This document shows, one piece after another, positions 24,426 to 28,918 of a DNA stretch of 64,000 bases. How positions within the stretch are numbered: position 1 is the first letter of the stretch; each line of letters opens with the position of its first letter. The notes below the pieces were generated by a model. The model had not been told where the DNA came from. It made no database searches and saw nothing but the letters and a program-made list of their open reading frames with translations. Made by a program: the position numbers and the translations under genes. The stretch is from Tautonia sociabilis (lineage in GTDB: Bacteria; Planctomycetota; Planctomycetia; Isosphaerales; Isosphaeraceae): assembly GCF_003977685.1 (NCBI RefSeq), contig NZ_RYZH01000034.1, positions 1 to 64,000 on the forward strand. Reading direction: 5' to 3'.

Positions 24426-24454
24426 AGCATAACCCCTGGGCCCGGTTCGCTCAA
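24426..24454 (-). promoter_or_regulatory. Promoter of fabI
   Basis: On the minus strand TTGAGC (24454-24449), a 17-nt spacer and TATGCT (24431-24426). The -35 box overlaps the stop codon of the upstream secreted-protein gene. The predicted leader before the fabI ATG is about 150 nt. Confidence 0.55.
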
Positions 24455-25680
24455 CGTGCCCCCGGGCCGTTCCGCCCATTCCCAATCCGGTCGAGGCGCA
24501 GGGCGGCCTCCTGGAGGTCCGCATCCAGGGCCGATCGGGCCCGATCCAGGGCGATCCGGGTCGCGGCGCCGACCGAGAGGCTCAGGCGTCTGGCCCTCGG
24601 ATCGGTCCGACCGATCCCAATCGCCTCGAGCATCCGGAAGGCGGTTTGAACCTGAGGATCCCTGGCGAGGTCGCCGCCGGCGCCGGGGGGAAGCTCGGCG
24701 ACCCGGGATTCCCCCCGACGCCAGGCAACCCGCTCCCAGCGCCCGGGACCGGTGCGGACCAGCAGGCTCGCCTCGACCGCGACCCGGTCGAATCCGGGGC
24801 TCAGCTCCAGTTGCGTGACGACGGCCCCGACACGCCCCGACCCCTCGATCCGAGCCAGCGCCAGCCGCATCGGATCGGTCGTCCCCGGTTCGCCGAGCAG
24901 GTTGCCGACCAGGCCGCCGACCGCCTGGGCCAAGCCCGCCGGATCGACCTCGATCGCCGGGCCGGAGTCGGGCAAGACCAGGCCGCCGAAGCGGACAAAC
25001 CGCAGATCCGGGTCGATCAGGACCTCGGTTGAGGCCCGTCGGGCCAGCCAACGGCGATCGGACTCGACCGGGATCGGCAGCAGGTCGTCGATCGGGGCCG
25101 GGTCGATGGCGCTGAGGGCGAACCCCAGGGCCTGCAAGCCCTCCTGGAGCCGATCGACGGGCATCGTCTCGACCCCATCGAATCCGGCCCGCCAGCCCTG
25201 CCGGAGCATCCGGCGCCGATCCTCGGGCCGCTCCTCGACCCGAGCCACCTCCCGGCGGTCGATCGAGACGAGCATCAGCGGCGTCGGATCGGCCGGGAGG
25301 CCCGGGTCGAGGCGATCGAGCTCCGCATCGATCCAGGAGACGACCGGGTCGGCCGCTCCTCGAACCGGGACCCGATCGGCCCGCCAGCGCCGGAGCCGAT
25401 CGAGCCGGTCTTCCCGAGCCCGGCGGAGGATTCGCTCCTCGAGGGCTTGCCACGAGGAGGCGAGCTCGGGGAGGTGCTCCTCCGCCCAATCGCGGCGGAC
25501 GACCACCTCGATCCGGGTCGGCCGAGCGGGGAGCACCTGGCCGAGGAGAACCGAGCCGTCGCGCAAGACGACCCGATCGGCGGCCGATCCGGCCGTCTCC
25601 TCGACGTTCGCCCCCCCCTGGACGAGGAGGAGGGGGCTCGAGAGCAGGATCAGGATTGAGCCCAAAAGAGCCATTCCCAT
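24451..25680 (-). CDS. Secreted hypothetical protein
   Basis: 409 residues. Signal peptide [23 protein letters not shown], then a short [14 protein letters not shown] motif as in surface or periplasmic beta-domains that begin many planctomycete exported proteins. A basic/acidic helical region (about 55-105) and alternating alpha/beta segments follow. No catalytic motif was recognised. ATG at 25680 has GGGGGGAG 5 nt upstream; ATG at 25674 is also possible. It is divergent from the selenoprotein operon, with 82 bp between start codons. Confidence 0.72.
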
Positions 25681-25719: not shown

Positions 25720-25762
25720 CTCCCTGCGACTCGACCGCATTGTACCGGGACGGAGGTGCGTG

Positions 25763-26374
25763 ATGGCTCGGATTCGCTGGATCTCCGAGAACGAGGCGAG
25801 GGGGGAGCTGGCCGAGGCGTATGCCTCCTGGAAGGCGAGGAACCCGGGCCGGTCGGAGATCCCCGGGATCCTCAAGTGCTTCAGCCTTCGGCCGGACTTC
25901 TTCCGGGACGTGGTCGGGTTCTCCGATCGGCTCCACTTCTCCGAGGGGCACCTGACCCGCCGCCAGAAGGAGATGATCGCCACCTTTGTCTCCGCGTTGA
26001 ACCAGTGCCCCTACTGAACGGGGTCGCACGCCTTCTTCCTGCAGTTGCAGGAACCCGACCCGAGCCTGCACGAGCACCTCTCCCGAGCCGACCTCGACGG
26101 CGCCCCGCTGTCCGAGGCCGAGCGGGAACTGCTCCGCCTGGTGGAGACGATCACCAGGCACGCCTACCGGATCACCGACGAGCAGGTCGACGCCCTGCGC
26201 TGCCTTGGCTGGACCGACGAGCAGCTCGCCGAGTGCGTCTACATCGCCGCCCTGTTCGCGTTCTTCAACCGGGTGGCCGATGCGTTCGGCCTGGACGACC
26301 CGAACTACTTCGCCGCTCCCCCTCCCCGGGGAGGGGAGCCGACCGAACCGGAGGGATCGGGTGAGTCGGCCTGA
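25763..26374 (+). CDS. CMD/peroxidase-related enzyme with in-frame TGA, probable selenocysteine protein
   Basis: One frame of 204 codons contains TGA at 26015-26017 (codon 85), read here as selenocysteine. Both sides match the carboxymuconolactone-decarboxylase/AhpD-like peroxidase-related family. Before the TGA is QKEMIATFVSALNQCPY, after it TGSHAFFLQLQ, then LRCLGWTDEQLAECVYIAAL and FFNRVADAFGL. The family normally has C-x2-C...H; here it is C82-P-Y-U85-TGS-H89. A SECIS-like hairpin follows. GGAGG lies 6 nt before ATG 25763. The next gene, pxpB, starts 14 nt before this stop, so the full frame must be translated for normal coupling. Family members reduce peroxides or disulfides through the CxxC pair. 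The main alternative is a nonsense mutation or a sequencing error of TGC/TGT. Confidence 0.85.
26019..26062 (+). promoter_or_regulatory. SECIS-like stem-loop downstream of the in-frame TGA
   Basis: Upper stem TTCCTGC/GCAGGAA (26036-26042 with 26047-26053) closes a 4-nt AGTT loop whose second base is G. A lower stem GGGTCG/CGACCC (26021-26026 with 26056-26061) brackets it. The apical loop begins 25 nt after the TGA. Bacterial SECIS elements are known to lie inside the coding region about 16-37 nt after UGA with a G in the first two loop positions, so the fit is good. Confidence 0.7.
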
Positions 26375-27080
26375 TCGGGGGAGAACGGCCCCAGGCTTCG
26401 CCCCGCTGGGAGACCGCGCCCTGATGGCTCGGTTCGATCGGGAGGACGAAGCGGCGGCCTGGGCCGAAGCGATCCGGAGCCGTCGGTTGCCCGGCGTGCT
26501 CGACGCGGTCGCCTGCTTCGAGACGGTCGCCGTCTTCGCCGACCCCGACGCGGTCGATCCGGGGGCCCTGCCCGAGAGGCTGCTCGCGATTGCTTCCCCG
26601 ATCGGCCAGGGGCCGATCGGCCCGAGGACGCACCGGGTGCCGGTCTTGTACGATGGGAAGGACCTGGACGAGGCCTCCCGAGCGCTTGGGATCGAGCCAG
26701 GGGACCTGGTGCGCCTTCACTGCGAGGCGGTGTTCGTCGTCCGGGCGATCGGGTTCCTGCCGGGCTTCCCGTACCTCGGCGGGCTCCCCGAGGCGCTGAC
26801 CGGCCTCCCGAGGAGGCAGCCTCCCCGGACCCGGGTTCCCGCCGGATCGGTGGCGATCGCGGGGAGCCAGTCGTGCATCTACCCGGCCGAATCGCCCGGG
26901 GGCTGGCACCTCCTCGGCCGGACCCCCCTGGTCATCGCCGACCTCTCGAGCGGGTTCTTCCCAATGGTTGCCGGCGATCTCGTCCGCTTCGAGCCGATCG
27001 GCCCCGATCGGTTCGATGCCCTCCGGGGCCTTCGGCTCGGGGAGCCGGACCGCGGGGGGGATCTCATCCCGCTCCGGTGA
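26361..27080 (+). CDS. pxpB: 5-oxoprolinase subunit PxpB
   Basis: 239 residues of the KipI/PxpB family. FAPLGDRALMARF near the N terminus, VFVVRAIGFLPGFPYLGGLP (hallmark, about 128-147), TRVPAGSVAIAGSQSCIYP and SPGGWHLLGRTPL are all present. With PxpA and PxpC it forms the ATP-dependent 5-oxoprolinase that opens 5-oxo-L-proline to glutamate. GTG at 26361 was chosen because GGAGGG lies 5 nt upstream. It overlaps the end of the selenoprotein gene by 14 nt, so translation is coupled. Confidence 0.92.
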   Translation: MSRPDRGRTAPGFAPLGDRALMARFDREDEAAAWAEAIRSRRLPGVLDAVACFETVAVFADPDAVDPGALPERLLAIASPIGQGPIGPRTHRVPVLYDGKDLDEASRALGIEPGDLVRLHCEAVFVVRAIGFLPGFPYLGGLPEALTGLPRRQPPRTRVPAGSVAIAGSQSCIYPAESPGGWHLLGRTPLVIADLSSGFFPMVAGDLVRFEPIGPDRFDALRGLRLGEPDRGGDLIPLR

Positions 27081-27146: not shown

Positions 27147-27869
27147 ATGATCCGGGAAATCGACCTGAACGCGGACCTCGGCGAAGGGTTTCCGGACGAC
27201 GACGCGCTGCTCGACCGGGTCAGTTCGGCCTCCATTTGCTGCGGAGCCCACGCGGGGGGACCGGATGTGAGCCGCAGAGCGATCGAGGCGGCGCTTCGCA
27301 AGGGAGTGGCCGTGGGAGCCCACCCCGGCTTCCCCGACCGCGAGGGATTCGGCCGGAGGGAACGCCAGGCGAGCCCGGCCCAGGTGGAGGCGATCGTCCG
27401 GGAGCAGCTCGATCGCTTCGGGCAATGGGCCGCCGGACTCGGGGCGGAGGTCCAGTTCGTCAAGCCGCACGGGGCGCTGTACAACCAGGCGCAGCGGGAT
27501 CGAGGGATCGCCTCGGGTCTGGTGGCGGCCGTCTCCGGCTTCGCTCCCCGGCGGCCGATCCTGGGACTGGCCGGGAGCGTGCTCGGCGAGGAGGCCAGGC
27601 GAGCCGGCCTCCGCTTCGTGGTCGAGGGCTTCGCCGATCGTCGGTATCGCCCGGACGGCTCGCTCGTCCCGAGATCGGAGCCCGGCGCCGTGATCGACGA
27701 CCCGGAGGAGGCGGTGCGGCAGGTCCTGTCGCTGATCGGCCGGGGGCCGGAGACGATCTGCCTGCACGGCGACGACCCCGGAGCGCTTCGCCTGGCCGAT
27801 CGGCTGCGGACGGCCCTGGCCGACGCCGGGGTGCTCGTCCGGAGCTTCGTCCGGGGGACGGGAGCGTGA
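27147..27869 (+). CDS. pxpA: 5-oxoprolinase subunit PxpA (LamB/YcsF family)
   Basis: 240 residues. The family signatures IDLNADLGEGFPDDDALL at the N terminus, SICCGAHAGG, AVGAHPGFPD, VKPHGALYN and a C-terminal ICLHGDDPGAL are all present, with the Asp/His residues of the metal-dependent deacetylase-like fold. It supplies the catalytic part of the PxpABC 5-oxoprolinase. It follows pxpB by 66 nt and overlaps pxpC by 4 nt (GTGA). Confidence 0.96.
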   Translation: MIREIDLNADLGEGFPDDDALLDRVSSASICCGAHAGGPDVSRRAIEAALRKGVAVGAHPGFPDREGFGRRERQASPAQVEAIVREQLDRFGQWAAGLGAEVQFVKPHGALYNQAQRDRGIASGLVAAVSGFAPRRPILGLAGSVLGEEARRAGLRFVVEGFADRRYRPDGSLVPRSEPGAVIDDPEEAVRQVLSLIGRGPETICLHGDDPGALRLADRLRTALADAGVLVRSFVRGTGA

Positions 27870-28918
27870 CCGAGCGGGACGAGCTGGCGACATCCGGCCT
27901 GACGGTCCTGCACCCCGGCGCCTGGACGACGGTCCAGGACCTCGGCCGATTGGGCCTTCGGTCCCGGGGGGTTCCCCCGGGAGGAGCGTTCGACTCGCAA
28001 TCGCACGAGCTGGCCAACGCCCTCGCGGGGAACCCTCCGGGAGCGGCGACCCTGGAGCTTGTGCTCCTCGGCGGCAAGTTCCGGGCCGATGGCCCCCTGG
28101 CCGTCGCCCTGGCCGGGGCCCCGATGCCCGCCCGGGTCCTCTCCGGCTCGGGAAGCCGAACCGTCCTCCCCCCGATCGGGTTCGGGCTCCTCCCCGGCGA
28201 CGTGCTCGAACTGGGCGGCCTCCCCTCCGGAGCAAGGACGTACCTGGCCGTCCGGGGAGGCTGGAGAACGCCGATCGTCTCGGGAAGCCGATCGTCGGAG
28301 CGGCCGCTCCGGGAAGGGGAGCGGATCCCCGCCCTGCCGAGTTCCTCCCCGATCCGGCGGCCACGCCCCTGCCTCCTCGCGATCCCCGGGCAGGAGGGCC
28401 TCCCGATCCGGATCATCGAGGGCCCCGATGCCGAGCTGCTGGTCGACCGGGACTGGCACCAAAACCCGTTCGTCGTCTCCTCCGAGAGCGACCGGATGGG
28501 CCTCCGGCTGGACGGGCCTCCGATCCAGGTCCGCACTCCTCCCGACCGGCCGTCGATCCCGGTCCTCCCGGGAGGAATCCAGGTTTCCGGAGGCCGCCCG
28601 ATCCTCCTGGGAGTGGCCGCCGGCACCATGGGAGGCTACCCGCTCGTCGCGGTGGTCGCCTCGGCCGACCTCCCCCGCCTGGCCCAGGCGAGGCCAAGGG
28701 ACGTGCTCCGGTTCGCTCCGATCTCCCTGGCGGAGGCCAGGCGCCTCGATCGGGAATCGAGACGCGCTCGGCGGGGGATCCTCCTCCGCCTTGAGGCCGC
28801 GGTCGGCGGGGCCGGCACCCTGGCCGATCCGGAGCGACGGCCCCCGGGGTCCGGTCCCTCGGCGGAAGGCGAGCCGTCCGACCGAAATCGACCTTGCCGG
28901 GGCAGGGAGGACGGGTAA
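27866..28918 (+). CDS. pxpC: 5-oxoprolinase subunit PxpC (biotin-dependent carboxyltransferase-like)
   Basis: 350 residues. LTVLHPGAWTTVQDLGRLGL at the N terminus, GVPPGGAFD, NPPGAATLELVL and the C-terminal PVLPGGIQVSGGRPILLG match the KipA/PxpC family. It starts at GTG 27866, overlapping the pxpA stop by 4 nt. The final ~40 residues are Arg/Pro/Ser-rich beyond the family core. It completes the pxpBAC set downstream of the selenoprotein gene. Confidence 0.93.
   Translation: MTERDELATSGLTVLHPGAWTTVQDLGRLGLRSRGVPPGGAFDSQSHELANALAGNPPGAATLELVLLGGKFRADGPLAVALAGAPMPARVLSGSGSRTVLPPIGFGLLPGDVLELGGLPSGARTYLAVRGGWRTPIVSGSRSSERPLREGERIPALPSSSPIRRPRPCLLAIPGQEGLPIRIIEGPDAELLVDRDWHQNPFVVSSESDRMGLRLDGPPIQVRTPPDRPSIPVLPGGIQVSGGRPILLGVAAGTMGGYPLVAVVASADLPRLAQARPRDVLRFAPISLAEARRLDRESRRARRGILLRLEAAVGGAGTLADPERRPPGSGPSAEGEPSDRNRPCRGREDG

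Follow-up and report, generated by a model that had tools for sequence, protein, structure and literature searches.

In a 64,000-nucleotide stretch of Tautonia sociabilis DNA (hereafter the window), a forward-strand gene located at positions 25,763–26,374 was identified that very probably encodes a selenocysteine (Sec)-containing redox enzyme by means of an in-frame TGA codon. Judged from its sequence, the best explanation is a genuine selenoprotein gene, in which Sec is almost certainly inserted at codon 85 of an AhpD-like thiol/selenol oxidoreductase.

Reading frame and internal TGA codon

The gene comprises 203 codons and starts with an ATG at 25,763, upstream of which a Shine-Dalgarno-like motif (GGAGGTG, positions 25,751–25,757) was recognized by eye. 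The frame is interrupted once, by a TGA at codon 85 (26,015–26,017; context C82-P-Y-TGA-T-G-S-H), which would be read as U85 within C82-P-Y-U85, and it is terminated by another TGA (26,372–26,374). GC3 of this frame is 0.93 on the 5' side of the internal TGA and 0.91 on its 3' side, with values of 0.74 and 0.46 for the remaining two frames.

Residues 21–177 match TIGR01926 (peroxidase-related, CMD fold) across the TGA with 90.9 bits, which is above the cut-off of 81.8 (four Sec-form orthologues score 88.8–104.6 bits), and the Pfam CMD domain covers residues 44–90. The earlier note on this DNA had claimed that the TGA occupies the position of the second redox Cys of the family and that family sequence continues after it. 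Both claims held, as the aligned Cys of the relatives falls exactly on codon 85 and AhpD-like family residues are conserved beyond the TGA to approximately residue 177. A gene caller unaware of Sec truncates such a gene at the TGA and loses its second half; confirmation of Sec insertion would therefore correct how the gene is annotated here and in related genomes.

Selenocysteine machinery of the genome

The window lies within contig C61 of a draft genome (6.76 Mb, 133 contigs, 94.8% complete). The genome carries a tRNA-Sec with anticodon TCA (C56:19370-19465), selB (C38:50209-52101), selA placed directly after it (C38:52157-53515) and selD (C39:92439-93377). The last of these has one in-frame TGA near the N-terminus (read NCAGUAGKL), and it is a known pattern that SelD is itself a selenoprotein. 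Since selD also carries an in-frame TGA, the genome should contain at least two selenoprotein genes.

SECIS-like hairpin

Models of the bacterial SECIS element place a hairpin immediately downstream of the UGA, its apical loop carrying a G(U) approximately 16–37 nt away. Folding of the RNA just 3' of codon 85 gave UUCCUGC-AGUU-GCAGGAA (positions 26,036–26,053, forward strand), with the upper stem CCTGC (26,038–26,042)/GCAGG (26,047–26,051), the loop AGTT (26,043–26,046) and the loop G at +27 nt from the UGA, in agreement with these models. The shuffle z-score of this hairpin sequence taken by itself is modest (−2.35). The upper stem, of five pairs, is paired in 99.2% of cells over all 25 Sec forms, and this value drops to 21–58% when one side of the stem is slid. 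One compensatory change, of C-G to U-A, was found (L084); two-sided covariation is limited to this one stem pair because the hairpin is nearly invariant. In four orthologues (L020, L022, L055 and L056) the encoded peptide QLQ is changed to RSQ and the loop AGUU to GGUC, with the stem and the GU retained. The hairpin is absent from the Cys forms.

Codon usage points in the same direction. Where Sec forms share the same amino acid, same-codon identity at +8 to +11 (in codons from the TGA) is 0.92–1.00 versus the expected 0.29–0.67, and further out, on both sides of this segment, it is mostly near expectation. Leu +10 is encoded by TTG in all 20 cases, and elsewhere in the same genes TTG accounts for 48 of 431 Leu codons. 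This codon choice constitutes the strongest evidence for the putative SECIS element. A scan of the window against Rfam detected one tRNA only, and no curated SECIS family was matched.

Selenocysteine and cysteine forms among orthologues

A scan of species genomes yielded 23 relatives, 15 with a TGA at exactly codon 85 and 8 with Cys. Further relatives were added by searches within the family and the phylum (the "order"-level search covered the same 45 genomes as the "family" one), resulting in a line-up of 25 Sec-form orthologues (including the one in the window), 10 Cys forms (with the near-duplicate L030 excluded) and 1 Gly form. The Sec forms originate from Planctomycetota, Chloroflexota/Dormibacterota and one acidobacterium, and the 24 other than our own share approximately 47–85% protein identity with the product of the window gene. 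Ten of the 11 relatives lacking the TGA have Cys in its place.

The form of the gene follows the presence of SelB, which was found in 23/23 Sec-form genomes versus 1/10 Cys-form genomes (Fisher p = 2.6e-7, indicative only, as the genomes are related). Within the Isosphaeraceae, 12 of 45 genomes possess the orthologue, in each case with the TGA and with SelB, and SelB is missing from 15 of the 33 others (Fisher p = 0.004); since the genomes tested are related, this value, too, gives the direction only. The tree, which has no fixed root and many weak forks, places the Cys rows of the orthologue group in two separate blocks amid the Sec rows; this would fit repeated change from Sec to Cys.

The earlier note had read the gene as a selenoprotein and had named several checks, among them a genome search for the sel genes, whose absence would refute this reading, and an alignment of relatives at codon 85, in which downstream frame breaks would do so. 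Since selA, selB, selD and tRNA-Sec are all present, the genome-based objection falls, and the alignment revealed the TGA followed by an open frame, free of any break, in 25/25 Sec-form orthologues. Together with the SECIS-like hairpin, which is under strong synonymous constraint, these results uphold the proposal.

Two relatives deserve separate mention. In L087 (G090) the Sec codon is replaced by GGG (Gly); the orthologue keeps the SECIS-like TTCCTGCAGTTGCAGGG and its genome has SelB. Either the codon changed recently or the assembly is wrong at this point. L032 (Acidobacteriaceae bacterium KBS 83, G453) is a Cys form despite the presence of SelB in the genome, and two further AhpD-like copies are found nearby. 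A search of viral contigs found no relatives.

Predicted active site and fold

Five residues, E70, C82, Y84, C/U85 and H89, are invariant in an alignment of 21 sequences. AhpD proteins use a proton relay, described as Glu36-Cys48-Tyr50-Cys51-His55 in PA0269 and as Glu118-Cys130-His132-Cys133-His137 in Mycobacterium tuberculosis AhpD (PMC3141380). The spacing of E70/C82/Y84/U85/H89 is that of the relay in these two proteins and agrees with the pattern Glu-x11-Cys-x-His/Tyr-Cys-x3-His. An AlphaFold model, calculated with Cys written at position 85, has a mean pLDDT of 91.5 and is confident across the TGA. It shares its fold with the peroxidase-related AhpD cores 2prr, 6k40, 2oyo and 3c1l (TM 0.75–0.78, approximately 25% identity; the best was 2prr, TM 0.78), and in the alignments that were read (2prr and 2oyo) a Cys occupies the position of Sec in the window protein.

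On this basis the following mechanism may be proposed. SelB carrying Sec-tRNA(Sec) would be recruited by the hairpin just 3' of the UGA and insert selenocysteine at codon 85, which would yield a thiol/selenol oxidoreductase of the AhpD-like (peroxidase-related) type with an all-helical fold. U85, as selenolate, would be the attacking residue in place of the second Cys of the CxxC motif (the equivalent of Cys133 in M. tuberculosis AhpD), C82 would resolve the oxidized form with the assistance of E70, Y84 and H89, and a cellular thiol donor would reduce the U85/C82 pair. The likely job of such an enzyme is the reduction of peroxide or another electrophile.

Genomic neighbourhood

The selenoprotein gene is followed on the same strand by genes for 5-oxoprolinase subunits, pxpB (26,361–27,080) and pxpA (27,147–27,869), and by a pxpC-like gene (carboxyltransferase domain A/B; 27,869–28,918). 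The start of the next gene had been described in the earlier note as coupled to the far stop codon. This is plausible, given the 14-nt overlap between a pxpB start at GTG 26,361 and the end of the selenoprotein gene, but the GTG start is itself a prediction: it is the only usual in-frame start that retains the conserved-looking N-terminal motif GDRAL, which is lost with a start at ATG 26,424, located 49 nt beyond the selenoprotein stop.

Among the 12 Isosphaeraceae genomes having the selenoprotein gene, pxpB adjoins it or lies nearby on the same strand in 10 (at a distance of approximately 0.8 kb in L056). The stretches of two g19 genomes (L020/L058 and L022/L059) contain no pxp genes, and none were found beside orthologues outside the family, in stretches of 3–6.6 kb, so the pxp link is local. 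The sampled neighbours of the distant orthologues revealed no common partner; most of the frames chosen there matched nothing in Pfam and are perhaps not genes. It seems improbable, though conceivable, that in the Isosphaeraceae the selenoenzyme works together with the PxpBAC 5-oxoprolinase encoded directly after it; if so, a selenium-dependent step or protection would be linked to 5-oxoproline metabolism.

On the other side of the selenoprotein gene lies a divergent gene (24,451–25,680, reverse strand) with no Pfam match, which is kept beside it, at 35–63% identity, in most of the family genomes having the selenoprotein gene.

Alternative explanations

The TGA might be a sequencing or assembly error, or the stop of a pseudogene, in an ordinary Cys enzyme, as the window derives from a draft assembly in many contigs and Cys relatives do exist. 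Against this, 24 further orthologues, taken from different assemblies, have TGA at codon 85 too, the sequence beyond it is constrained as protein-coding, and the TGA tracks SelB. Since 25 orthologues share the TGA with open coding sequence after it, an error is very unlikely, and this explanation, to which we give hardly any credence, was rejected. A slightly less remote, still highly improbable reading is that the TGA is decoded as another amino acid, by a change of code or near-cognate suppression, or that it ends a short functional product. UGA readthrough without Sec does occur in bacteria, but here the genome possesses tRNA-Sec and the full Sec machinery, the hairpin is constrained, and the residue replacing the TGA in relatives is, with one exception, Cys. 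Reassignment of TGA throughout was rejected, because the gene itself terminates at this codon.

The selenoprotein reading is unaffected by a further question, the chemistry in which Sec is used. There is an appreciable, though minor, chance that it serves mainly a non-peroxide role, such as disulfide reduction, dehalogenation or a 5-oxoprolinase-linked adaptor function. The fold also includes the debrominase Bmp8, and pxpB follows the gene in most of the family genomes that have it; on the other hand, the AhpD relay residues are intact and no pxp genes were found in the 3–6.6 kb sampled beside orthologues outside the family.

Relation to known selenoproteins

The AhpD-like CxxU selenoprotein family is already catalogued and has been known since 2005, and the window gene is thus a well-supported but ordinary new example. 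A survey of the Sargasso Sea described 27 sequences of the family (COG2128; PMC1088965), the GOS study, which uses the name "AhpD-like 1", yielded 299 occurrences of the family (PMC2398784), and a 2026 review lists the AhpD-like CxxU family under TIGR01926, with MCB9421940.1 (PMC13188914). Planctomycetes with the full Sec machinery, including I. pallida, were also known (PMC4807772). The window protein has in common with this family the TIGR01926 match, the CxxU motif and the position of Sec; leaving sub-group placement aside, it differs from the known description in that, in its own bacterial family, pxp genes follow.

Two related models were considered and rejected. NF041238 (AhpD_rel_CFYUT, hypothetical protein 1 from the Sargasso Sea) likewise has CxxU in a related AhpD-like domain, but the window protein gave a partial match to this 357-position model with 66.7 bits versus a cut-off of 175. 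NF053654 (YciW-related (seleno)protein) comprises related YciW/COG2128-like proteins, some with Sec according to the model name, and scored 19.2 bits versus a cut-off of 310. Knowledge of selenoproteins in general is not changed by the finding. Its value is that of a clean comparative case, in which Sec tracks SelB, the hairpin freezes approximately five codons, and Cys substitutes where the machinery is gone.

A second, distinct TIGR01926 group with CxYU was observed in the same family (L060-L077), with a differing conserved sequence after the TGA (CGCAGAGTTTCTGCG). One TGA form of this group occurs in G021, in which selB was not found (the genome is 89% complete), and Cys forms of the group are found mainly in genomes that lack SelB.
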